DNA from: a virus
Length of the DNA stretch: 22,758 nt
IMG/VR virus record: IMGVR_UViG_3300025096_000145
Location: 1-22,758 of that record
Reading direction: 5' to 3' (one strand)
Shown: positions 1 to 20,869 of the stretch, piece after piece
Layout of the letters: each line of letters begins with the position of its first letter
Position numbering within the stretch: position 1 is the stretch's first letter
Program-made: the position numbers and the translations under genes
Notes under the pieces: generated by a model
The model's database searches: none
Seen by the model: the letters and a program-made list of their open reading frames with translations, nothing else
Told to the model about the DNA's origin: nothing

Positions 1-237
1 CTACCACTTCCTCCAGCTGAAAGTCTAATTTTCTCTTCAGATGTACTATCCCCATCAACACAGGAGACAGTATAAGTTGTATTAGTATCAGATACAGTAT
101 TAGCAAAGGTAATCTTATCAACATCTCTAGTAATTGATAAACCTGTACTAGCTGCTAATACAATATCATCTGTACCGCTACCACTTCCTCCAGCTGTAAG
201 TCTAATCTTCTCTTCAGATGTACTATCCCCATCAGCA
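1..237 (-). repeat. In-frame 177-bp tandem repeat in the fibre shaft
   Basis: Bases 1-60 and 178-237 match at 57 of 60 positions with a spacing of exactly 177 bp (59 codons). On the minus strand each copy encodes a unit containing CxDGDSTSEEKIRL followed by AGGSGSG and GTDDIVLAASTGLSI. At least one complete unit and one partial unit are visible, and more may follow beyond base 1. A short hexanucleotide run (Asp-Thr repeats) at about 257-279 precedes the array. Confidence 0.85.
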
Positions 238-1394
238 CAAGAAATACCATATGTAGTATCAGTATCAGTATCAGTATCATCACCCCATGTAAGTGCTCCA
301 GCAGCATCTGAAGTCTTAAGAACTTTTCCTGATTCTCCTACACCTGCTGGGAGTGTAAGTGTATAACTTGTTGTTACAGCAGCTGGTGCTTTAATTCCTA
401 CAGTATATTCATTAGAATGACTATCTTGGAATTTAACAGGTGCTGAATCTTCTAGTGTTATACCTGTTGTAAATGTAGGAGATGTTTTTGTACTATATCG
501 ATCTTCTGGATCATTAGCAAAGTAACTTTTCCAAGTAAATAATTTCTCATATGATGAACCATCATATGAACCACCTGTATGATCATAAGTCATTCTTACA
601 GTTAAACCAGCTGCACCTGTAAAATCATCTGGTTTACCCTTAAATGTGTATGTTAGCGCAGGATCACCAAAAGTCCAATCTCCATTAACCAGGCTAGTTG
701 AATTCGTTAATTCATAGTAACCATCACCAGTAGGTGTAAAACCTTTTAAAGCTGCGAAATCATCTTTTGGTGTATATATTACAGCATCAGCCACCGCTGC
801 AGCAGTAGTATCGGCAGTATCTTTAGCAGCATCTGCTACACTTATAGCACTTGTATAACCGCCTGAACCATCAGATTTCCGTGAGTTACTTAAAGCAGTC
901 TCAGCTGTAGTTACCGAATACTTAACCCCTTTAGGGTCTGTACTGGCATCAGTGTTACCACCTGTTAATGTCCAAGTAGAGCCACCATCTGCAGTAGTTG
1001 CAACAAGACGATCTGTAGCAAGCTTAGCAGCAGTTGCTGTAGTATCAGCGTCATTTGCAGTTCCTTCTGTCTCTTGAGAAACATAATGAACTTGTGTATA
1101 GTTATCGTTTAGGTCTGCTGCACGTAGAGCAGAGCCAGGGTAGAAAGTAGATCTTAGAGTTTCATTAGCTGTATCTCTAAAAATTTTGATCTTTGCGCTA
1201 GCTGCTGGAGCTGAGGTAATTTCTATTGTAGTAGCATTGGCAAATGTATATGCACTTGTAGACTGAGTAGTATAGGAAGTTTCACTGCTAAGTTGAATAC
1301 CTACTTTTACATCAGTTTCTTTTAAATATGGAAATGTGAACGGAAACAACTTATTAGATGCATCCGTTTGAGTTATTATGTTGTAAGTAGCCAT
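1..1394 (-). CDS. T7-like tail fibre protein, N-terminal part (runs off the window)
   Basis: Partial gene: it starts at ATG 1394 and stays open to base 1, giving about 464 residues. The first ~110 residues (start MATYNIITQTDASNKLF, later AADLNDNYTQVHYVSQE) match the N-terminal tail-attachment domain of T7 gp17-type fibres. Known family role: this domain docks the fibre on the tail hub, while the distal part binds the host receptor. After it come Ala/Thr/Asp-rich segments, then a Gly/Ser/Thr/Asp-rich beta-type shaft ending in a 59-residue tandem repeat (second copy cut by the window edge). The gene begins 4 nt after the stop of the gp16-like gene, with a weak purine-rich ribosome site (AAGAAAG). 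The receptor-binding tip is outside the window. Confident for the domain, not for specificity. Confidence 0.9.
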   Translation of the reverse strand, partial: MATYNIITQTDASNKLFPFTFPYLKETDVKVGIQLSSETSYTTQSTSAYTFANATTIEITSAPAASAKIKIFRDTANETLRSTFYPGSALRAADLNDNYTQVHYVSQETEGTANDADTTATAAKLATDRLVATTADGGSTWTLTGGNTDASTDPKGVKYSVTTAETALSNSRKSDGSGGYTSAISVADAAKDTADTTAAAVADAVIYTPKDDFAALKGFTPTGDGYYELTNSTSLVNGDWTFGDPALTYTFKGKPDDFTGAAGLTVRMTYDHTGGSYDGSSYEKLFTWKSYFANDPEDRYSTKTSPTFTTGITLEDSAPVKFQDSHSNEYTVGIKAPAAVTTSYTLTLPAGVGESGKVLKTSDAAGALTWGDDTDTDTDTTYGISCADGDSTSEEKIRLTAGGSGSGTDDIVLAASTGLSITRDVDKITFANTVSDTNTTYTVSCVDGDSTSEEKIRLSAGGSG

Positions 1395-1398
1395 GCTT

Positions 1399-4300
1399 TT
1401 ACTTTCTTAATTGAAGGATTGTCTTAAGCTTTTGTTGTTCTGATACCTTATTGGCATCTTCAACTCTACCTTGTTCTAAATAATTATCTATAACTTTCTT
1501 CGAATCTATACCACCCCATATATCAGGTTGCTCTGCTCTAAGTCTTTGTTCAGCTAGAATCTGAGCCCTTTTTATTATTCTTCTTATCTCTTTATATACA
1601 GGTAACTTACTCTGTTCTAATTTAATCTTATCTGCATCATGACCTTGAGCTCTTAAAGTACGTATTTGACCTATTTCGTTATTATACCTTTTACTTTTCA
1701 TTAATTCCTGTACCTCTAGATAAGGTTGTAATTCACCTATATATTGATAAAGAAGATCACGTTCTTCAGGTGTATACTCTCTTGAACCAGTAGAGTCACT
1801 AAGAAGCATAGCGACACCAGGGAATCCGAGTTCTCTTAAATACTTTCTAAAAGGTTCCTCACCGTCACTGACTTTAACAGGACTTAGAGCGTTTAGACCT
1901 CTAAGTATTGGATTATCGATCTCATTAATAGGCTTTCCAGTCCAGAAATCTCTTTGTTCAGGTAATGTACTAGATGCTATTGGTATTCTATTTTTAATAT
2001 AACCTAAGAAATCATTATGAATAGATTTTTGACTAGTAGTTATAGCTTGAGAAACAACTCCTAATGCACCTGAAGCAGGTATCAAACCTCTAACTTCATT
2101 TGCTGCTATTCTTCTCAATGCAGTTTCATCACCAGTTAATGCTTTTAATATTGGATCAATACCAGATAAAGCTGTTTGATCTAAGAAAGTTGCTGTAAAA
2201 GTCCATGCTAGTTTATAAGTCAGATCTTCCATAATAGAAGAACCTATATCACTTGCATAATAAGCTGCATCACCTACTAAAGTAAGTGCAGCTTCAACAC
2301 CAGGTATACCACTATAATCGTACCAAGTACCTCCTACATTAATAGTTCTTGGTTTCCATCCATAGTTATCTCTTAACTTTCTACGGTCAGCCGCTCCTGG
2401 TGGTCCATTACCTCGTATATTACCACCTAAAGCATAATCAAATAAAGTACCTGATAATAACGTTGCAAACGCTAATCTACCCCGATACTCAGCTCTTAGA
2501 TTTTGATATATAGCCATAGCAGCTGGTTCTGCATTAAAATCTTTTATACCATGTTCAGCTAAAGCTACTTTAATTTTCTCTATATCATTACCAGCCCAAA
2601 GTATTTTTGTATACCTACTCAGACCAGGTATAGCCATTAAAGGTGTATAAGATGTTGCATACTTAACCAAATTATTACCTGTTCTGGGGAACATAAAGAA
2701 TGATTTAAGAAATGGAAATCTGTCAACTCCATGTTGAATCCATTTAGCTGCACCATCATCTAAGTTCATGGCTATACCACCACTTAGAGTCTTAACTACA
2801 GAATCTTTAACAGTCCCATCTAGATTAAATATATTTTTATAATGCTGTTTTTCAGCTCTTTCTAAAGCTTCAAGTGTTATATTACCACCATTCTTTTTAA
2901 ATACTTCATCATAAGCTTTAACTCTAGATATTTCTGTAGCTATTTTGGTATTAGTAAATGCATCAATACCAGTCATTGCAGTCAATGGTGACCTCATGAT
3001 AGGCCATCTTGCTATATCTCTGTTAACCTTAGCCCATCTATAGAAAAATATTTTACCATAATCTGCTTGCTCAGTCCATGACTTAGACAAATTCTCTAAG
3101 ACTTCCCAGGAGTTATCATCTTGAATAATAAAGTCCTTACGGAAAGCATCAACCATAGCATCAGGATCTGTATTAACTTTCTTAATAATTTCCCATGCAT
3201 CATATAAGGCACGCTTATTTGTTTCAAACATGGCGCCTTGATAATATATAGCTTTCTTTATAGGTTCAAAGCTGTTACCTAATAAAGCTTCTACACCATG
3301 ACCTAAAAATGAGTTCATACTCCTTAACATTAAGGCTGATGTATTACCTAATCCAGCACGGAATGCAGATATACCAGACAAAACATTATTATATCTAATG
3401 GCCCAAAGGCCTTTAGCGAATAAATTCATCCCTTCTTTTGTTGGGCTTTTAATTAAACCTAATGGTGTTATTTTCTTCCAAGCCCATTGTTGCAGTTTCA
3501 TTAAAGTATCTACATCACCATTTGATAAAGCAAAAGCATCTACCAAAGGTTTCATAGCTAAAGGATTTTTAATTCTTAATTCTTCTAGAGTTTGACGGAA
3601 GTCCATAGTTTTAGCATGGAGTGCGTTTTGTGCTTCTGTGAACTCTTTTTGTAGTAAATCTGTAAATTCTTTGGGATTATCAAATCTTGTTAAATTATTC
3701 CACCAACCTTTATTCCTTAACTGCCAGCCAGATATATATTTATTTAAAGCATATTCATTGGTTAGGAATGACCATTTATCCATGATACTAGTCATGATCC
3801 TATCTTTATCCATTAGCTGACTAAAGTCTTTAGAAGCATTGGATATAGTAGTCATTTCACGTCCTAATGTATCCATAGCCCTTGCTGAAGTTAAAGTAAC
3901 AGCCCGTCCTAGGTACTTATCAGTAAGATCACGTATAGCAAAAGCAGCGGCTTGTGCATTTACATCATTTATATAATCTATTTTTGTACCATCAATAAGG
4001 TTTTTAACATCTCTATTCCTAAGGAATAATTTCCTTACATCTTGTACAGTATTAGCATTGATAATACTTCTATAAATATCCCAAGCTGCAGCATTCATTT
4101 CTTTAGCTGTAAACCTAAAACCATCTACAGTTGCATTAAAATTACCTGTATTTCTAGCTTGTTCAGCTAAGTCTACTATAGTCTGTCTTGAGTTACCAGA
4201 AACATGTAATCCTTTTCTTAACATAGGATCACTTATAAGAGGAGCTGGGTCACCTTGACTAGTTCCTCGTTTAATTGCTGTAGTATCAGCCATATTCCTA

Positions 4301-5490
4301 GCAACATTAGCTGTAGGAATACTTTGACGTGCAGTAGAAGCTTCTGAAGATACTTTAGAATATATATCTGGATCATACCTACTAGAAGTAGGATCAGCTT
4401 CAATTTTACTTAAAGCAATTTCGTCTGTCTGATTATTTCTAGTGGTCCCGTTACGTTGAATACTAGCTTCTAATGGTTGTATTCTAGTAGCAGATGTAGT
4501 TCCTGAATTTAATTGCTCTAATAAAGTCTGCCTTTCTTGCATTAATTGACTTTGATCAGCTTTACCAACAGCTCCTGAAGACAAAGCTTCATCTATTTGA
4601 GAGATACGCATTAAGGTATCATTATCAGCAGAATCTAATAAGGATTTAGCTTTATAAGTTTTAGCTGTATTATCTAAACCTTTAAACCAACCCATAATAG
4701 GTTTACCAGCAATTAATCCATATCCTAATATATCAGCAACTACACTTAAACCTATAGATTCCCATCTATTCTTTTCTTGTCTTACTTTAGGACTATCTGA
4801 TTCTAATGTTCTCCATTCTTCTGGTATATTAAGATGAGGAAACCATTCATTTAAATAGTATAAAACATTATGCTCTTCTCCTTCATCACTAAGACTAATA
4901 ACTGCGCCATCTATAGCAGCAGTCATTCCTATAGCAGATAATCCATGTGCTAATCCAGGTAATTGAGCTTTCGCTAATTGAGCATTACCTGTTTTAATAG
5001 CTATAATAGTAGGTAGAATGACACTAGTCATTTCCCTAGCTTTTTGTATGTAAGGGTTATCAAACTTAGACCATTCATCCCAGCTATCATCTAGCCTTTC
5101 TAAAGCTTCTATACCACTAGCATTGCTGATAGCATCAAATGTAAAGTCAGCTAGAGCGTAACCTGGTATATTAGCTATATCAACTACATCAGATACTATA
5201 GGTGTTCTACCTCCAGGTAGATCTAAACCAAGTTGCCTTTTAGCTTGAGCTTTTGGAGTAGGTAGAGATTCTAATCCTTCTTCTTCTTCTTCTTGAGGTT
5301 GAATCTCTTCTGTAGGTTGAACTTGTTCTGTAGGTTGAGTCTCTTCTATAGGTTGAACTTGTTCTGTAGGTTGAGTCTGAGAAGAAGGGGTGGGAGTATC
5401 TTCAGGATAAAAACCTTGTTTAATTCTGTTCTGACGCTCGATCTCTTGAAGTTTCTCCTTTTGTAATTCACTTAACTCTTCTTCATTCAT
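1399..5490 (-). CDS. Internal virion (ejection) protein, T7 gp16 equivalent
   Basis: The 1363-residue product lies immediately upstream of the tail fibre and downstream of the gp15-like gene, the T7 gp16 position; T7 gp16 is 1318 residues. The family sits inside the capsid core and is ejected to form the DNA channel across the cell envelope. I see no SLT transglycosylase motif at the N-terminus, unlike T7 gp16. Instead there is an acidic Gln/Pro/Glu hexapeptide repeat (residues 39-68) and then a conserved-looking region (QLGLDLPGG). Several hydrophobic stretches could touch membrane (about residues 155-170, 185-200, 1010-1030). Residues 882-899 share a near-identical peptide with the upstream gp15-like protein. 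The start ATG overlaps the upstream stop by 4 nt (ATGA) and has an AGGAAT ribosome site. Assigned by size and synteny. Confidence 0.8.
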   Translation of the reverse strand: MNEEELSELQKEKLQEIERQNRIKQGFYPEDTPTPSSQTQPTEQVQPIEETQPTEQVQPTEEIQPQEEEEEGLESLPTPKAQAKRQLGLDLPGGRTPIVSDVVDIANIPGYALADFTFDAISNASGIEALERLDDSWDEWSKFDNPYIQKAREMTSVILPTIIAIKTGNAQLAKAQLPGLAHGLSAIGMTAAIDGAVISLSDEGEEHNVLYYLNEWFPHLNIPEEWRTLESDSPKVRQEKNRWESIGLSVVADILGYGLIAGKPIMGWFKGLDNTAKTYKAKSLLDSADNDTLMRISQIDEALSSGAVGKADQSQLMQERQTLLEQLNSGTTSATRIQPLEASIQRNGTTRNNQTDEIALSKIEADPTSSRYDPDIYSKVSSEASTARQSIPTANVARNMADTTAIKRGTSQGDPAPLISDPMLRKGLHVSGNSRQTIVDLAEQARNTGNFNATVDGFRFTAKEMNAAAWDIYRSIINANTVQDVRKLFLRNRDVKNLIDGTKIDYINDVNAQAAAFAIRDLTDKYLGRAVTLTSARAMDTLGREMTTISNASKDFSQLMDKDRIMTSIMDKWSFLTNEYALNKYISGWQLRNKGWWNNLTRFDNPKEFTDLLQKEFTEAQNALHAKTMDFRQTLEELRIKNPLAMKPLVDAFALSNGDVDTLMKLQQWAWKKITPLGLIKSPTKEGMNLFAKGLWAIRYNNVLSGISAFRAGLGNTSALMLRSMNSFLGHGVEALLGNSFEPIKKAIYYQGAMFETNKRALYDAWEIIKKVNTDPDAMVDAFRKDFIIQDDNSWEVLENLSKSWTEQADYGKIFFYRWAKVNRDIARWPIMRSPLTAMTGIDAFTNTKIATEISRVKAYDEVFKKNGGNITLEALERAEKQHYKNIFNLDGTVKDSVVKTLSGGIAMNLDDGAAKWIQHGVDRFPFLKSFFMFPRTGNNLVKYATSYTPLMAIPGLSRYTKILWAGNDIEKIKVALAEHGIKDFNAEPAAMAIYQNLRAEYRGRLAFATLLSGTLFDYALGGNIRGNGPPGAADRRKLRDNYGWKPRTINVGGTWYDYSGIPGVEAALTLVGDAAYYASDIGSSIMEDLTYKLAWTFTATFLDQTALSGIDPILKALTGDETALRRIAANEVRGLIPASGALGVVSQAITTSQKSIHNDFLGYIKNRIPIASSTLPEQRDFWTGKPINEIDNPILRGLNALSPVKVSDGEEPFRKYLRELGFPGVAMLLSDSTGSREYTPEERDLLYQYIGELQPYLEVQELMKSKRYNNEIGQIRTLRAQGHDADKIKLEQSKLPVYKEIRRIIKRAQILAEQRLRAEQPDIWGGIDSKKVIDNYLEQGRVEDANKVSEQQKLKTILQLRK
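2795..2848 (-). repeat. 54-bp dispersed repeat, copy in the gp16-like gene
   Basis: This segment matches 5605-5658 at 51 of 54 positions: 27 identical bases, then 9 bases with 3 mismatches, then 18 identical bases. It is read in the same frame in both genes and encodes QHYKNIFNLDGTVKDSVV at residues 882-899 of this protein. Flanking sequence is unrelated. Confidence 0.95.
5287..5376 (-). repeat. Hexapeptide-encoding minisatellite near the N-terminus of the gp16-like protein
   Basis: Five tandem 18-bp units encode the pattern [TVI]-Q-P-[TIQ]-E-[QE] at residues 39-68. At a higher order, the 36-bp blocks 5305-5340 and 5341-5376 match at 35 of 36 positions, which suggests recent slippage or duplication. 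The result is a flexible, acidic, proline-rich tail ahead of the folded part. Confidence 0.9.
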
Positions 5491-8180
5491 TTGGATATTC
5501 CTAGTTTCTGTTTAGCAAATTGGGTCAAGTTTGTTTTTCTATCGTCCGATGTCATTTCAGATTTAGTTAGAGGTTTGTTAGCCTCTTTAGATTTTTCTGG
5601 ATTGACTACAGAATCTTTAACAGTCCCATCTTCATTATATATATTTTTATAATGCTGTAACTGATGCCATTCTTCCGTAGTAACAGGACTCTCGATAAAT
5701 TCTACAGTAGGTGGTACCTTTCTGTCCGGTGTTCCAGGATCATTGTTTGCTGCAATTGTATTCAATTGATCTATGTTTAACTTCATTAGCTCATCATACC
5801 TAGATGATAGATTATTAGACATATTATCACGGTTTCGAGGGTATCCTTCTTTACTAGGTATTAAAACAAGTTGGAAGTTTTTTAATTGTTCTGGTGTTCT
5901 TATCTCACGTACCAGTTTAAGTATCCCTGGATCCATATTAGATAGTTCTCCAGCTCTAATCATAAGATCCTTCCTCCAATCTGTTTTAATTTGAGTACTA
6001 TAACCACCTAATTTTAATTGAGCATTCAGTACATCAACAACAGTAATTTGCTTTTCTAATGGTTTATCTTCATTAAATACAGCTACTAAATCATGAACAG
6101 TACCTGGCACACTTATCATGGAGTTGTTATTGACCTGATGATCGACAAGTCCAATTAAAGAATCTTTTAGTATAATTTCTTTATCCCATTTTAAAATCTG
6201 CTGGTCACTTACATTGTCTTTTAACTTATATGAATTTAGTACTACTTTCCCAGGCTCTTTATCATCGTTTTCGCCAAAAGTAAAATTAGTAAAATAAGCG
6301 TTTCCACTTTTCCTTTTAAGAAGGTCACGTGGTGATGTTATATGCCACAAAGAACCAGGATCGTTTTTACCATCTTTTATCTCTGTATGTATTTTATCCC
6401 ATGCCTTAGAGACTGCTTTAGTAGAAGGTTCATCCTTATCAAGGAAATCCTTAACATATCTTTTAAACCTTCTAAAAGCTCTATATTCTGCAAGCTGTAA
6501 ACTGCTATCAGATATAGCAGTGGTACTTTCAACTTTCAGTAGGCCTTTTAATAAGTTACTTAATGATTTATTTAAAGTATCACTAGTACCAATAGCAGCC
6601 ATATTTAGTTCATCTTGAACTTTGGCTTTATTTTGAAACGCTGCTACTACTTTACTTGATACCCAAGGTTCAGTTAATTCAGCAGTAGTTAATAAACCAT
6701 CTCTTTCTAAGTCACCAAAGTATTGATTCCAATAAGCTTCATTTATTCCATCTATAGATTGAGCGTATAACCTAGCTTGAAGTTTATCTGTGCTCCAACC
6801 TTGGTCTTTAGCTAGTTTAATTAAGTGATCTACAACTTGAACATTAAAGCCTCCTGGTAGACTGTTAACGACTTCTTCAGCTTTTTGCTCAAAATCACTT
6901 TGTTTTTGTTTGTCGTTAGTTAATTCATTGTTTAGAGCTTTCCTTCTGTTTGAACCTCTTTCCTGAATTAACTCATCTAGACGTGTAATAAATTTTGAAC
7001 CCCAAGTTAGGTCACTTATTGGCTTACCGTTTTCATCTAAGATAGTTTGATTTTCTAGGAAATCTCTTATTTCATCATCTTCACCAGGTACTAGACTTAC
7101 ATTTTCCATCCAATTAAATATAAGATCGATGGCTTCAGTTCTGTGATAATTTCTATTGTACCCATTTGGTTGTAAACTATCAGGGTTAATAGTCATCATT
7201 AATTTGTTTAACGTATTGCTCAAGTACTGCTTACTTATTCCATACGGATTGTCATCCTCAACGAATAAGCCTCTTTCTTTAAGCTCATGTTTAAACAAAT
7301 TACTTATAGTACCAACAATTTCCTTAGCATTTGATTTACCTTCCTCAAGTCTAGATGTGTTTAATAAAGCATTAGTACTTTGTTTCATTTTCTGAAACAT
7401 TGGTCCCATGAAATCAGCACTGAGTCCAAATAGACCTCTTTCTTTTAAAAACTCATCTCTTAGTGAAGGTAGGATAGCATCTATCTCTGATGCTTTAGAA
7501 AGGTTTCTTTCTCCTAAGCCTTTCTGAAAGAATACTGGCCAATCAGCAGCAGCCATTTCAGAATAAGCTTTCATTTTGCCATAGGATTGTGGTTTGGTTA
7601 AACCTGAAAAACTTTGAACTAGCCAAAAAGGTGCTCCAGCTTGTTGAAGTCGTGTAGCCAGATCTCCAGTAATCTTTTCTGAATTTTCTAAAAGTAGTTC
7701 AGCGTTGTTTCTTACAATCTCTCGATCTCTTGGTATTCCTTCATTCCAAGCTTTAGTATAAGCTTCAGAGGCTTCCTCATCACCTTTAATTTTACCCATC
7801 TTCAGTAAAGCTTGGGCCCAAGTTGTACTTAGGTTCTGAATACTTGAAGCAAATGCTGTAGCGTTATCTTTTTCTTGCTGATGACTTCTTAGTTTACTTC
7901 TCAGTAAACGTTCTTCAGATGCCATTCTAGTAGTCCCAGCTTTATCTTCTAATTGTTTTAACTCTTGTCTATTAGCCTCTGCTTTACGGAATGTTTCAGA
8001 TGTATCTGAGATGCGTCGGTTTGCAAGAGATTCACGTCGTGATTCTTGCTCCTTCATGCCACGTATGACAGTCTGATTTCTTTCGTTAATTCTGTTTAAC
8101 AATCCGTATGGCATCTGTACAGCTTTATTGCTGCGTCCAGTCGCGTACGACTGAAAATTTGCTTTAGGTAAACGTGCCAT
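5487..8180 (-). CDS. Internal virion (ejection) protein, T7 gp15 equivalent
   Basis: An 897-residue, mostly helical, charged protein between the gp14-like and gp16-like genes; T7 gp15 is 747 residues and occupies the same slot. In T7 the protein is part of the internal core stack and is ejected into the periplasm to build the DNA-conducting tube. The N-terminus is basic (MARLPKANFQSYATGRSNKA) and followed by a coiled-coil-like region rich in Arg, Glu, Gln and Lys (about residues 30-95). No catalytic motif is visible. Residues 842-859 (QHYKNIYNEDGTVKDSVV) recur almost exactly in the gp16-like protein. The ATG lies 11 nt after the previous stop with no Shine-Dalgarno, only an A/T-rich leader. 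The stop overlaps the next start (ATGA). Assignment rests on position, size and composition. Confidence 0.75.
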   Translation of the reverse strand: MARLPKANFQSYATGRSNKAVQMPYGLLNRINERNQTVIRGMKEQESRRESLANRRISDTSETFRKAEANRQELKQLEDKAGTTRMASEERLLRSKLRSHQQEKDNATAFASSIQNLSTTWAQALLKMGKIKGDEEASEAYTKAWNEGIPRDREIVRNNAELLLENSEKITGDLATRLQQAGAPFWLVQSFSGLTKPQSYGKMKAYSEMAAADWPVFFQKGLGERNLSKASEIDAILPSLRDEFLKERGLFGLSADFMGPMFQKMKQSTNALLNTSRLEEGKSNAKEIVGTISNLFKHELKERGLFVEDDNPYGISKQYLSNTLNKLMMTINPDSLQPNGYNRNYHRTEAIDLIFNWMENVSLVPGEDDEIRDFLENQTILDENGKPISDLTWGSKFITRLDELIQERGSNRRKALNNELTNDKQKQSDFEQKAEEVVNSLPGGFNVQVVDHLIKLAKDQGWSTDKLQARLYAQSIDGINEAYWNQYFGDLERDGLLTTAELTEPWVSSKVVAAFQNKAKVQDELNMAAIGTSDTLNKSLSNLLKGLLKVESTTAISDSSLQLAEYRAFRRFKRYVKDFLDKDEPSTKAVSKAWDKIHTEIKDGKNDPGSLWHITSPRDLLKRKSGNAYFTNFTFGENDDKEPGKVVLNSYKLKDNVSDQQILKWDKEIILKDSLIGLVDHQVNNNSMISVPGTVHDLVAVFNEDKPLEKQITVVDVLNAQLKLGGYSTQIKTDWRKDLMIRAGELSNMDPGILKLVREIRTPEQLKNFQLVLIPSKEGYPRNRDNMSNNLSSRYDELMKLNIDQLNTIAANNDPGTPDRKVPPTVEFIESPVTTEEWHQLQHYKNIYNEDGTVKDSVVNPEKSKEANKPLTKSEMTSDDRKTNLTQFAKQKLGISK
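5605..5658 (-). repeat. 54-bp dispersed repeat, copy in the gp15-like gene
   Basis: Partner of the copy at 2795-2848 (51/54 identical, same orientation and codon phase). It encodes QHYKNIYNEDGTVKDSVV at residues 842-859, about 40 residues before the C-terminus of the gp15-like protein. Confidence 0.95.
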
Positions 8181-8191
8181 TAAATTAATTA

Positions 8192-9361
8192 TTAAGTGAT
8201 TAGTTCCATGTTAACATCTAAGAAATCATAGATTACACTTAAGAATCCATCTTTCTCTTTAATAACAGCTTCTGGGAATATCTTGATGACTTCCTGTGCT
8301 ATGACTCCACGGTAACGTGAATTAGGTGCAGACTTATAACTCCATTCATAAATGTTTAAGCCAGATAATGCTTTACCAACTTTAACTATATTCTCTTTTA
8401 GGCGTATATCACTGGCTCCAGAAGTTTGGTTAGCAAAATTTCCGCTCTGATATGTTGAAGTATGTTGACTACCTGTATTACCTGTACTACCTATGTTCCA
8501 ATTTGATTGATAATTAGCAAAGGCAGTTATACTATTACCTAGTCCAGATATAGCATTAGCCCATCCAGCCAGAGAAGACGCCTGAGCGCCTTTAATAGGT
8601 TTAGGTCCAAAATCAAACGCCTCAAGTTCTCTAGGCTCTTGGTACTCTGTAAGTGGTGTTGCTAATGGTATTTCAGGTGTTGGTAGTGTTCCAGGATGTA
8701 TCATTTTATTAGCTAAAGCTGCTAAATTAGCACCATACTGATCTCTAGCTATATCTCTTATAGTAGCTGCTGTATTCCTTTCAGCGCTAATTAATGACTC
8801 TGCTAATTTAGCTTGATTCATTCCTAATGATGCCATTACTGCTTGAGCAGCTTTAGCACCAGATCTACCAGAACCTCTTACAATAGCATCACCTTCAGCC
8901 ATAAGAGATTCAAGAACCATGTCTTGATTTTGGAATGCTACACTTTGAGTTATTTCTTTTAATTTTCTATATTCAGCTTCTTTTGCTGCAGTAGCAGCCA
9001 TCTTATTATGTGATAACTGTGCTGTGAATAAAGCATTAGATTTAGTGTACTGTTTATTCAAAGATGTCTGTTGATAATTTCTTATCTTTAATGCCGCACC
9101 ATAACTTTTAATACTATTAGTATCTTTAAAATTCTTTAAAGTTATATCATTCTTTCTTGCTATGTTTATACCTTCTAGAATAAAATCTCTATCGGTTTCA
9201 AGTTTCTCCTTCCCATACTGCCAGTTTTGATTATCATATCTAAACTGATCTCTTATAGCTTTGTTCTGCGCTGCTGCTGCCTTACTGGAAGCTCTAGCAC
9301 CCAAAACCATACCAAGACCACCAAGTACTATACCTGCTGCTCCTAAAGCCTTCTCAGACAT
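8192..9361 (-). CDS. gp14-like internal virion protein with C-terminal S74-type chaperone domain
   Basis: The 389-residue product occupies the T7 gp14 slot after tail tube B. The N-terminus is a Gly/Ala-rich hydrophobic segment (about residues 5-22), as expected for an ejected protein that inserts in the outer membrane, followed by a long Ala/Lys/Gln-rich helical region to about residue 220. Residues 317-389 differ: they start SDIRLKENI and contain RGVIAQEVIKIFPEAV. This is the signature of the S74 peptidase / intramolecular chaperone domain, which normally ends tailspikes and fibres and cuts itself off using a Ser/Lys pair in the SDxRxK motif. Ser317 and Lys322 are both present. A strong ribosome site (AGGAGG) lies 9 nt before the ATG. 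The chaperone domain is a confident motif call; the gp14 role comes from position and N-terminal character. Confidence 0.82.
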   Translation of the reverse strand: MSEKALGAAGIVLGGLGMVLGARASSKAAAAQNKAIRDQFRYDNQNWQYGKEKLETDRDFILEGINIARKNDITLKNFKDTNSIKSYGAALKIRNYQQTSLNKQYTKSNALFTAQLSHNKMAATAAKEAEYRKLKEITQSVAFQNQDMVLESLMAEGDAIVRGSGRSGAKAAQAVMASLGMNQAKLAESLISAERNTAATIRDIARDQYGANLAALANKMIHPGTLPTPEIPLATPLTEYQEPRELEAFDFGPKPIKGAQASSLAGWANAISGLGNSITAFANYQSNWNIGSTGNTGSQHTSTYQSGNFANQTSGASDIRLKENIVKVGKALSGLNIYEWSYKSAPNSRYRGVIAQEVIKIFPEAVIKEKDGFLSVIYDFLDVNMELIT

Positions 9362-15368: not shown

Positions 15369-15502
15369 TAGTAGTTTTCTGTGATTTCGCACGTTGGACA
15401 TTCTCTACAATGTTTATGTTCGATCATGTGTAGAGTCTCCACGAACACAAAGAACCCAAACATTATGAGTGCTAAGGCCCATGGAGAATCTATGTACTTC
15501 AT
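15368..15502 (-). CDS. 44-residue membrane microprotein with a cysteine cluster
   Basis: An ORF of 44 codons: ATG at 15502 overlapping the TGA of the beta-barrel gene by one nucleotide (TGATG), TAA at 15368. The product starts MKYIDSPW, continues as a single hydrophobic helix (about residues 8-23, ALALIMFGFFVFVE) and ends in a soluble tail with HKHCRECPTC. The three cysteines spaced C-x-x-C-x-x-C, with two nearby histidines, could bind a metal or form disulfides. The coupled overlap with the upstream gene suggests joint expression with the secreted protein. Holin, lysis accessory or exclusion protein are all possible; I recognise no family. Confidence 0.72.
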   Translation of the reverse strand: MKYIDSPWALALIMFGFFVFVETLHMIEHKHCRECPTCEITENY

Positions 15503-15876
15503 CAGAAGTTATATTTAACCCCGACTTTGGTACCCCAACTTGAGTCATCATCAGTATCTTCATCTGCAGTTAGCAGTGAGACTTCACCATAAACTCCGAG
15601 GTTATTAGTAGCTTGGAAATTTCCACCTACTTTACCAGATAGTCGCCAGTCAGAATCTATACCTTGTTCAGCTACAATGGCTGGGCCTCCTTGAATGTAG
15701 AAGGAAGAACCATTCTCAGCAGCTGTTTCATAACCTACGTGAACGTCGGTTACAGAACCTGTATATTCCGAGCCCACACGAGCCCCGTTGGATTCTACGT
15801 TGGCATAGATACCGGCTGATGCAGGTGTCGCCAGTGCTGTGGTGGATGCCAGAGCGGCAAGTGCAATAAGTTTCAT
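15502..15876 (-). CDS. Secreted small outer-membrane beta-barrel-like protein
   Basis: A 124-residue protein with a clear Sec signal peptide: MK, hydrophobic core, and a signal peptidase site ATPASA|G after residue 21. The mature ~103 residues are alternating polar/hydrophobic strands (IYANVES, VHVGYETA, SFYIQGGPAIV, WRLSGKVGGNF, LGVYGEVSLLTA), and the last strand ends KVGVKYNF. A terminal Phe with alternating aromatics is the typical assembly signal of outer-membrane barrels. An acidic loop (DEDTDDDS) lies before the last strand. It should therefore sit in the cell's outer membrane or periplasm rather than in the virion. Superinfection exclusion, as for small barrels of the lambda Lom type, or envelope modification are possible roles (inference). 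The start has an A/T-rich leader with no Shine-Dalgarno, 9 nt after the 16-residue ORF. Confidence 0.85.
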   Translation of the reverse strand: MKLIALAALASTTALATPASAGIYANVESNGARVGSEYTGSVTDVHVGYETAAENGSSFYIQGGPAIVAEQGIDSDWRLSGKVGGNFQATNNLGVYGEVSLLTADEDTDDDSSWGTKVGVKYNF

Positions 15877-15948: not shown

Positions 15949-16066
15949 AGTAACCAACCCCCGTTCCATGATTGGTTTTCATGCGTTCCGTTAGGAATGA
16001 ACGGTCGTGGATCCCGTTGGCTTCTACTGCTTCGACAAGCGAGCCGCCATGTTTATTATGATGGTA
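15947..16066 (-). other. Open frame of 39 codons without a normal start; possible frameshift tail or gene remnant
   Basis: From just after a TAG (16067-16069) to TAA (15947) the frame reads as plausible protein, including GGSLVEAVEANGIHDRSFL and MKTNHGTGVGY, but its only ATG (15982) leaves 11 codons. It lies in the +1 frame relative to the 66-codon ORF and overlaps that ORF's last 11 nt. It could be the downstream half of a frameshifted product, a remnant of a gene that lost its start, or an 11-codon leader coupled to the 16-residue ORF. The sequence is noticeably more GC-rich than the flanking genes. Confidence 0.4.
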
Positions 16067-17791: not shown

Positions 17792-19358
17792 TAATCTCCT
17801 CCATTAATTGTGGGTTTTTTGTGGGATCCAACATTGGTGCTGAAGCTAACTGTGGCATAGCCTTAGTCATCTCTAAGCTTTGAGCTTGTTGAGCTTGTTG
17901 AGCCTGTTCTTGCTGTACTTCTTGTACAGTCTTAACAAGATTCAACACATCAATACCTTGTGCAGCTGCTAATCTCTTAACAACTTCCTCTGGATTAATG
18001 TATCTAGCAATAGCTTCTGGTCCCATTGTTTGTGAGATTGTAGTTAAATAAGCTGCAAGACTCTCACGATCTTGTCCTCTACCTAATGCGTTAACACCTG
18101 CTACAATAGTAGGTTTTACAACATCCTTTGGTAAACGTGGTATCTGTCCTGATTTTTGAAAGACAGAAAGTTTCCTATTTAAATATGGTACTAAGAACTC
18201 AACAGTTAGCAGACTAAATAAGCCACCTAGCTGTTGCTCTAATTCCATTTGTGTCATACGTACTTCTTCTGCAGTGGTACGTTCACTTTGTCTTACAGTA
18301 AGAATAAGGAAAGCTTCAGACAATCTTCTTTCAAGTTGTTGAGACATTTCATATGCTGTTTTAAAATCAGCAGTCTTTCCTACCTGTACCACACCGATAT
18401 CATCGGGTCGTCCTTGAACGATAGCTCCATTACCTGCAGCGGCAAGGGTTTGTGGTTTAGTGGTACTACTTGGTGACACAACAAACACAACCTTAGCTGC
18501 AGCTGCTGAGCCTTCTACGAGAGCTTGAGATAAACCTTCTAAGGATCTAAGATCACCCATGAATTGTTCAACTCTACCTCGACCCCATACTTCACCATCA
18601 ACATTATTAAAACGAAGAGCTAACCAGGGATTAGTATCTAAAGGTGCTTTACCTATAGAACCAGGTACGATTTTATCGTATACTTCCTGATGCCATATAA
18701 CCCTGTTGTTTTCTCTCTTGACATGTGTGTACACATCACATTCGTTTCTATCGTGGCTGGTACCATCTTCTCCAGGTGGGTTCACATCCGTAGATTGCTG
18801 AGCCGCGTATTCTGGAAAATTTTTTTGTAATAATTTTTTGTTAATTCGTTCTTTGGTGACTAATTCTATCACATTACCGTTGCCATCTCTTTCTACAACA
18901 TAGCGATTCATAGGGAACATCTTAAGTCCTTTTTTACTCATAAAGATTAGAGCATTACCAGCTACAACTAAGTGTTGTAAAGCTTGGTGTACTACAACTC
19001 TATCATCAGAAGCTGCAATAGCTTCCATAATAGTCCTCTCTATTTTAGCAAAAGATAAATCTAATTCAGATTTAACTTGTGGATTAGAACCTAATTCTCC
19101 AAGTTGTGTTTCATCTACCTGTAATTTAAAGAAGCTGGTTTGAGGAGGTAGTAGAGCTAACATCAATTTTGATGCTAGAGTTACTACCCCCTTTGCGCCA
19201 ACGCTTTGCCATGGTGTAGGTAGGGTACGTGCACCTCTTGAGATATCATCATCTTGACGTATTAAATACGGAAGAGTCAGACGTGCTGCCGATTCTGCTG
19301 AGCTGAGAAATTCTGAACGATCACTTGATAAATAATCATACCTAGATTTAGCAGTCAT
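17724..19358 (-). CDS. Portal (head-tail connector) protein, T7 gp8 equivalent
   Basis: A 544-residue protein of the usual length (T7 gp8: 536). It contains the T7-type opening YLSSDRSEFLSSAESAARLT, LPTPWQSVGAKGVVTLASKL followed by MLALLPPQTSFFKL, and the later WLALRFNNVDGEVWGRGRVE and ERTTAEEVRMTQMELEQQLG, all recognisable portal family blocks. Twelve copies form the vertex ring through which DNA enters and leaves, and the scaffold nucleates on it. The C-terminal ~75 residues are Gln/Ala/Thr-rich low complexity (EVQQEQAQQAQQAQSLEM). The ATG overlaps the previous stop by one nucleotide (TAATG) with AAGGAAT upstream. The 3' end hosts the start of the nested basic gene. Confidence 0.95.
   Translation of the reverse strand: MTAKSRYDYLSSDRSEFLSSAESAARLTLPYLIRQDDDISRGARTLPTPWQSVGAKGVVTLASKLMLALLPPQTSFFKLQVDETQLGELGSNPQVKSELDLSFAKIERTIMEAIAASDDRVVVHQALQHLVVAGNALIFMSKKGLKMFPMNRYVVERDGNGNVIELVTKERINKKLLQKNFPEYAAQQSTDVNPPGEDGTSHDRNECDVYTHVKRENNRVIWHQEVYDKIVPGSIGKAPLDTNPWLALRFNNVDGEVWGRGRVEQFMGDLRSLEGLSQALVEGSAAAAKVVFVVSPSSTTKPQTLAAAGNGAIVQGRPDDIGVVQVGKTADFKTAYEMSQQLERRLSEAFLILTVRQSERTTAEEVRMTQMELEQQLGGLFSLLTVEFLVPYLNRKLSVFQKSGQIPRLPKDVVKPTIVAGVNALGRGQDRESLAAYLTTISQTMGPEAIARYINPEEVVKRLAAAQGIDVLNLVKTVQEVQQEQAQQAQQAQSLEMTKAMPQLASAPMLDPTKNPQLMEEISGAGQTQQTPTSQEVQGDPTPE
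17796..17802 (-). promoter_or_regulatory. Shine-Dalgarno GGAGGAG deciding a GTG start inside the portal gene
   Basis: GGAGGAG on the minus strand, 4 nt before GTG 17791, within the portal coding sequence. It is the strongest ribosome site in the head region and supports the nested 79-codon gene. Confidence 0.75.
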
Positions 19359-20869
19359 TAGATATTAATTCCTTGAATTTTTAATTGCTTTCTACTTAAT
19401 TGTTGAGTACCTTTTTTAGCTGCACCGGTCTTATACTTCTTAGAACGCTCTGGTCTTACTCCTGTAGCAGATGTGCCATACAATGCACTTGAACCAGCAA
19501 GTGACATTCCAGCTGCTTTTGTCTCTGGGGTCTCTACATTTACTGTAATCGGCTCTGTCTTGCTTATACCTTCGATCAATTTATTCCAATCTATATCGTC
19601 GCCTGTTTTAACTCCACCTACTACCTCACCATCAACAGGTAAAGTACCATTCCCATATGTAGATCCACCTTGTTGACCGTAATCAGTTGGTGGAACCCAT
19701 GTTCCGGTATTTTTATTGAAATCGAGCCATGAATCTATCTGTGCTTTAGTAGAAATAGTAGCATCCCTATCAAGGCCTGATTCAAACCTCCATTGATCTA
19801 ACTTATCTGGGTCGGCGTCTCTATTATACCAATCATAACTTATACTACCAATACGTCCATGAGGGTCACGACCTTTGTATTTAAGCCAATTAGAACCTTG
19901 CGTTCTACCTGCACGCTGATCAATCAAAGGTATTAGAGGGTTGCTATGAATATCCAAAGGTATTTGGCCTTCACCCCACGTACCTTCTCCAGTACCCATA
20001 AGCGTTTTCCAACCTTGACCGATATTTTCACCGGGGTTATAAGGGGTTATATGTACCCCATCATAACCCTCTCCAATATGGTCCCATTCATAATCAGTAC
20101 CAAGCTGCCTTTTGACATCTTCAACGCCTTGGTTATAGTACTTCTCTGCATTTGGAAGTCTTAATCTTATGCCTCCTTTTCTTTTGGTTCCTCTATCCCA
20201 TGATGGCCTACCTTTATAGTCACCTGGTGACCACCAGTCTCTCATGTACCCTTTAGGGCCTCTTCCTGTAGCTGCCACGTAAGCATAGGTAGCATCTTCG
20301 TCAGACATTTTACCGGTTTGATTGGCTCGAGCTTGAAGTGCCTGTGGTATCCTATATGTACCTTGTGGTATGGTGCCACCGCCAGTATAGGCATCCCAAG
20401 CTCTACTTCTAGTAGTGTCATAAAGACCGCCTTCTGCTCCTCTAACATCACCACCCTGTAATTGACCTTGGTTTTGATTTAAGTAATTATAAAAATCCCA
20501 AGGCTTGCCACCAGCGGCATAAAATGTCATGCGGTCATCGCCTTGTATCTGAGTCCCTGCGTTAGGATTAGCTTTCCAATCACCAAAGTAAGCAGAAGGC
20601 TCATCTTTAACATTCTTAATTTTATCATACAGACCGCCTGAACTTTCTCTATTATCTTTCCACATAGCCTTTCTACCTTCACCTCTTCCATACCAGTCCA
20701 TGAAATCTGTATAGCCTTGTTGTGTACCGCCTGGTTTGTTTCTAGCGTACTCTAGCCATTTTATCCAATCAGCACCACCGAAGTCTCCTTTATTTCCATA
20801 CCCTCCTCCTTCTTTGTCTTTGGCTATTTCTGACCACCATCGATCAATAGGTAAATTGTTATTACTCAT
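19358..20869 (-). CDS. Gly/Trp-rich 503-residue putative virion protein upstream of the portal
   Basis: I do not recognise a named family. The product is rich in Gly, Trp, Tyr, Asp and Asn (DRWWSEIAKDKEGGGYGNKG, ADWIKWLEYARNKPGG, GYTDFMDWYGRGEGRKAMWK) with repeated short D-W or Y-x-x-W elements over the first ~370 residues. A low-complexity hinge follows, then a basic end with ATGVRPERSKKYKTGAAKKG and QQLSRKQLKIQGINI. No signal peptide or transmembrane helix. It is co-translated with the portal (TAATG overlap) and with the upstream 65-codon gene (8-nt overlap), with a ribosome site GAGG. That ties it to head or connector assembly; a structural role is likely but inferred. The basic tail may bind DNA or the portal. 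Confidence 0.75.
   Translation of the reverse strand: MSNNNLPIDRWWSEIAKDKEGGGYGNKGDFGGADWIKWLEYARNKPGGTQQGYTDFMDWYGRGEGRKAMWKDNRESSGGLYDKIKNVKDEPSAYFGDWKANPNAGTQIQGDDRMTFYAAGGKPWDFYNYLNQNQGQLQGGDVRGAEGGLYDTTRSRAWDAYTGGGTIPQGTYRIPQALQARANQTGKMSDEDATYAYVAATGRGPKGYMRDWWSPGDYKGRPSWDRGTKRKGGIRLRLPNAEKYYNQGVEDVKRQLGTDYEWDHIGEGYDGVHITPYNPGENIGQGWKTLMGTGEGTWGEGQIPLDIHSNPLIPLIDQRAGRTQGSNWLKYKGRDPHGRIGSISYDWYNRDADPDKLDQWRFESGLDRDATISTKAQIDSWLDFNKNTGTWVPPTDYGQQGGSTYGNGTLPVDGEVVGGVKTGDDIDWNKLIEGISKTEPITVNVETPETKAAGMSLAGSSALYGTSATGVRPERSKKYKTGAAKKGTQQLSRKQLKIQGINI

Follow-up and report, generated by a model that had tools for sequence, protein, structure and literature searches.

A segment of about 57 bp in the gp16-like internal virion protein gene of a T7-like phage was very probably copied, a single time and within one genome of this phage lineage, into the gp15-like internal virion protein gene. 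The two copies are near-identical at the DNA level, lie in otherwise unrelated surroundings and are read in the same frame. The evidence for the copying, for its direction and for its probable lack of consequence is given below.

Genes of the window and the repeat

The window, i.e., the whole stretch of 22,758 nucleotides analysed here (IMG/VR virus record IMGVR_UViG_3300025096_000145), is a T7-like, cyanophage-type genome fragment, and all genes named here are located on its minus strand. It contains genes for ribonucleotide reductase, portal, a Gp10A-like capsid protein, tail tubular, the gp14-, gp15- and gp16-like internal proteins and a fibre; the tail tubular and fibre genes were assigned by position and resemblance. 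The gene order, which is that of S-CBP1, and the assignment by sequence to phrog_6651 (internal virion protein) together mark the gp16-like gene as a gp16 of the T7 type. The features relevant to the repeat are summarized in Table 1.

Table 1. Location of the repeat copies and of the genes that carry them (positions in the window)
Feature	Position	Strand	Remarks
gp16-like internal virion protein gene, 1363 aa	1399..5490	-	phrog_6651, E 1.9e-232
Donor copy, native gp16-like segment, aa 882-899, QHYKNIFNLDGTVKDSVV	2792..2848	-	counterpart in 82/82 aligned relatives
gp15-like internal virion protein gene, 897 aa	5487..8180	-	phrog_24152
Lineage-specific gp15 C-terminal tail, aa 740-897 (158 residues)	5487..5963	-	relatives' alignments stop at or near residue 739
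Recipient copy, gp15-like aa 842-859, QHYKNIYNEDGTVKDSVV, in the C-terminal tail	5602..5658	-	53/57 to donor; pLDDT about 40

Several other features of the window were recorded. The gp14-like protein (window 8192-9361, minus strand) carries a C-terminal Peptidase_S74 (endosialidase chaperone) domain (E 5.7e-13), which is typically found in fibres and spikes. The fibre gene (window 1-282, minus strand) contains an imperfect tandem duplication of 177 nt with 85-91% identity. An open reading frame of 503 aa (window 19358-20869, minus strand), located between the portal and ribonucleotide reductase beta genes, gave no match in Pfam or PHROG. A glutamine-II riboswitch (RF01704, 48.8 bits; window 15953-16006, minus strand) is situated immediately upstream of a gene for a 124-aa outer-membrane-like beta-barrel protein (PF24653, cyanophage; 15502-15876, minus strand), so that a host-type nitrogen-sensing switch stands here on a phage membrane-protein gene.

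The best ungapped alignment between the gp15-like and gp16-like genes joins the two copies listed in Table 1, both on the minus strand, and is the sole repeat between these genes. A match of 51 of 54 bases between 2795-2848 and 5605-5658, reported in an earlier note on this DNA, was recomputed with the same result. The common reading frame was also correct, but the ends of those segments are one base off the codon register, which runs from 2794 to 2847 and from 5604 to 5657 (minus strand; 18 codons, 50 of 54 bases identical). The 18-codon blocks differ by three nonsynonymous bases in two codons (TTT/TAT and CTA/GAA) and one synonymous base (GTT/GTC), and the encoded peptides share 16 of 18 residues. 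A chance origin is excluded, since the ungapped score of 45 compares with a maximum of 17 over 60 codon shuffles of gp15, and the blastn E-value is approximately 1e-19. Comparison of the flanks agreed with the observation in the earlier note that the protein sequences surrounding the copies are unrelated. Two non-homologous sites are therefore alike at the DNA level, synonymous positions included, as fits a one-off intragenomic copy.

The source sequence is a metagenomic contig, and a chimeric assembly could in principle produce such a repeat. This is unlikely to the point of being negligible, because the copies are not identical and have unique flanks, neither gene is disrupted, and the same arrangement recurs in a second contig. 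The latter, IMGVR_UViG_3300030382_001120 from IMG/VR, shares an overlap of 9511 bases with the window; only nine bases differ there (99.9% identical), none of them inside either copy, and both copies are unchanged in it.

The identity at the DNA level, the AT-rich composition and the common orientation of the copies would also suit a DNA-level element (a promoter, or a site for replication, packaging or recombination) or a small mobile element. Such an element is hardly credible here, as each record has only two copies and the donor is normal coding sequence, conserved within its family. The peptide halves, searched in IMG/VR as degenerate DNA patterns, found the pair in the sister contig only, the remaining matches being unrelated proteins or out-of-frame DNA. 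A 26-base exact pattern of the segment had zero matches in 85k bacterial and archaeal genomes, blastn of the segment against phage records gave chance-level matches only, and Rfam and tRNA scans gave no match at the repeat.

Survey of relatives and direction of copying

The gp16-like protein is approximately 40-47% identical to most of the cyanophage-type relatives found. The counterpart of the donor segment reads AEKLAYSEMFDAAGNLTDDAVK in S-CBP1 and AENRHYKNFFDENGLVKDQVL in one relative from a metagenome. Across the gp16 relatives the key residues of the segment are retained (Y884 in 81/82, F888 in 82/82, G892 in 82/82 and D896 in 78/82). Conservation of the segment is average for the protein, with an entropy of 1.39 (about the 60th percentile) vs 1.30 across the whole protein. 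In an AlphaFold fragment model it spans the end of a helix, a loop and the start of the next helix. Given this span and the average conservation, the segment is, as modelled, an arbitrary slice across a helix-loop-helix and no unit. Solved structures were matched neither by the gp16 profile in a sequence search of the PDB nor by the predicted fold of a 380-aa fragment.

The situation in gp15 is different in that no gp15 relative has a counterpart of the recipient copy. Residues 1-739 of the gp15-like protein align with S-CBP1-type relatives at 22-27% identity; the alignments of nearly all relatives finish at residue 739 or earlier, and the last 158 residues align to none. Among 92 non-redundant gp15/gp16 pairs the repeat was found in one lineage and in 0 of the 91 others, where the top matches were the bases of overlap between the two reading frames. 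Other dispersed repeats (at least 35 bases, 85% identity; 93 sequences, 1.09 Mb) were located in the genes downstream of gp16 (the fibre region).

The earlier note had left the choice between copying and a functional module, i.e., a binding or processing signal of gp15 and gp16 that selection keeps alike. The shared frame and the 16 identical residues are in line with a module, as is the interaction of the two proteins in T7, in which gp16 stitches the C-terminal regions of gp15 (PMC8954989). A module is nevertheless improbable: the peptide is absent from all other gp15 proteins, the other pairs lack the repeat, and synonymous positions are near-identical as well, beyond what selection on a peptide requires. 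The segment is moreover no better conserved in gp16 than the rest of the protein and cuts through a helix-loop-helix, and a residue invariant in gp16 is altered in the gp15 copy. The shared frame itself does not call for selection on the peptide, since the native frame alone of the six reading frames of the gp16 copy is free of stops; in any other frame the copy would truncate gp15, and any surviving copy would thus share the frame.

Of the alternatives put forward, copying is the one that stood, and its direction was gp16 to gp15. In the following comparison residues are numbered as in gp16, and frequencies refer to the 82 gp16 relatives. Both copies have N889 (2/82 relatives), T893 (0/82) and S897 (1/82), states special to this lineage, which identifies the lineage's own gp16 rather than a foreign one as the donor. 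Residue 888, an invariant F in gp16, is Y in the gp15 copy. Residue 890 is E in the gp15 copy, as in 9/82 relatives, and L in gp16, as in 0/82; the gp16 residue may accordingly have changed after the copying. When the gp15 peptide and tail were used as query, the matches were gp16 genes of other phages, with a best E-value of 0.012, and gp15 genes were absent among them. The donor site is ancestral, being homologous in 82 relatives, and the recipient site is derived, as gp15 relatives are without the patch. These comparisons show that gp16 is the source, that gp15 is the recipient and that the copies are homologous DNA.

The high DNA identity might alternatively reflect ongoing gene conversion, which the earlier note had offered together with recent copying as an explanation of the conservation at the DNA level. 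Only the copying found support. Ongoing conversion is highly improbable, as 4/57 sites differ, the same four in both contigs and with no sign of continued homogenisation, and no other genome has two copies. The suggestion that the peptide varies in concert within genomes was pursued among the gp15 and gp16 relatives and failed there, only one lineage having two copies. The two sampled strains, which differ by about 0.1%, are identical at each copy, and the gp15 copy was seen in no further relative, so that a single event suffices. The copying is confined to this lineage and predates the split of the two strains. "Recent" is thereby bounded: the event postdates the divergence of the lineage from all known relatives, yet is old enough for 4/57 base differences.

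IMG/VR protein scans with gp15 and gp16 yielded no closer relatives of either protein, and a close relative with an empty site, i.e., one lacking the gp15 copy, was not found. Insertion and replacement consequently both fit, and the joins cannot be read for microhomology.

The gp15 tail and the fate of the copy

The nearest gp15 relatives have a C-terminal glucosaminidase lysin domain at the place of the tail (present in 23/48 aligned gp15 proteins), and one of them also has an M23 peptidase; neither domain was found in the gp15-like protein studied here. The AlphaFold pLDDT of the tail stays below 50 throughout residues 771-882, a span that contains the patch, although the tail has no homologues to align and low confidence is therefore weaker evidence of disorder here than elsewhere. 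In a Foldseek search with gp15, the T7 gp15 structures (6yt5, 7eyb) and the PhiM1 ejectosome (8vb2) ranked 1st, 4th and 5th, with weak E-values of 0.014-0.41, and matches of a PDB sequence search with the gp15 profile were essentially to the lysin domain of the relatives. A search of the window and of related loci for patches from which the remainder of the tail might derive found none.

In the proposed course of events, about 57 bp of the phage's own gp16-like gene would have been copied in a single event to the 3' end of the gp15-like gene, 2.8 kb from the donor, with orientation and frame kept. The copy would most likely have arisen while phage DNA was being replicated or recombined, through a template switch or a microhomology-driven patch, as a short templated insertion or a non-allelic conversion tract that changed slightly afterwards. 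The low pLDDT and the unalignable sequence of the tail suggest that the copy landed where structural constraint is small. It may have persisted because this tail, which is missing the relatives' lysin domain, is poorly ordered and changes fast, and because its reading frame is free of stops; a function of the peptide would not be necessary. The patch is probably near neutral and of little consequence for the virus. Of the four differences, three are nonsynonymous and cluster in two codons, which is too few sites for a measure of constraint on the copy.

A role of the patch is conceivable, in that T7 gp16 stabilises the C-terminal region of gp15: after loss of the lysin domain, the tail patch might mimic gp16 and help to bind the gp16 partner surface. 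No result obtained here points to mimicry, and it is considered very unlikely. Were it true, a new protein contact would have been made by a short DNA patch copied between partner genes. The repeat looks like a tolerated accident of copying, not a shared working part.

Relation to known systems

Rearrangement at microhomologies of 6-10 bp is documented for the lytic phage T4 (PMC9391042). The duplications and deletions of T4 resemble the present case in that the copying is intragenomic, occurs in a lytic phage and is presumed to involve replication or recombination. Tandem segmental amplifications and large deletions are seen in T4, whereas the present patch, of about 57 bp, is found in another gene 2.8 kb away. 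A literature search for templated short insertions in phages gave indirect parallels only.

In T7, gp15 and gp16 are binding partners, and the C-terminal regions of gp15 are stitched and stabilised by gp16; domain mosaicism is known for ejection proteins (PMC8954989). The phage studied here agrees with the T7 gp15/gp16 ejectosome and with the Synechococcus phages S-CBP1 and DSL-LC07 in the order gp14-gp15-gp16-fibre, in the protein families and in domain mosaicism. It differs from its nearest relatives in that its gp15 lacks the C-terminal glucosaminidase domain and has the gp16-derived patch.

The effect on the virus itself is probably small. With its donor and direction settled, the repeat provides a clean natural case in which a very short patch has moved in frame from one phage gene to an unrelated gene of the same phage. 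Homology searches could be misled by patches of this kind, or the patches could pass for shared motifs.
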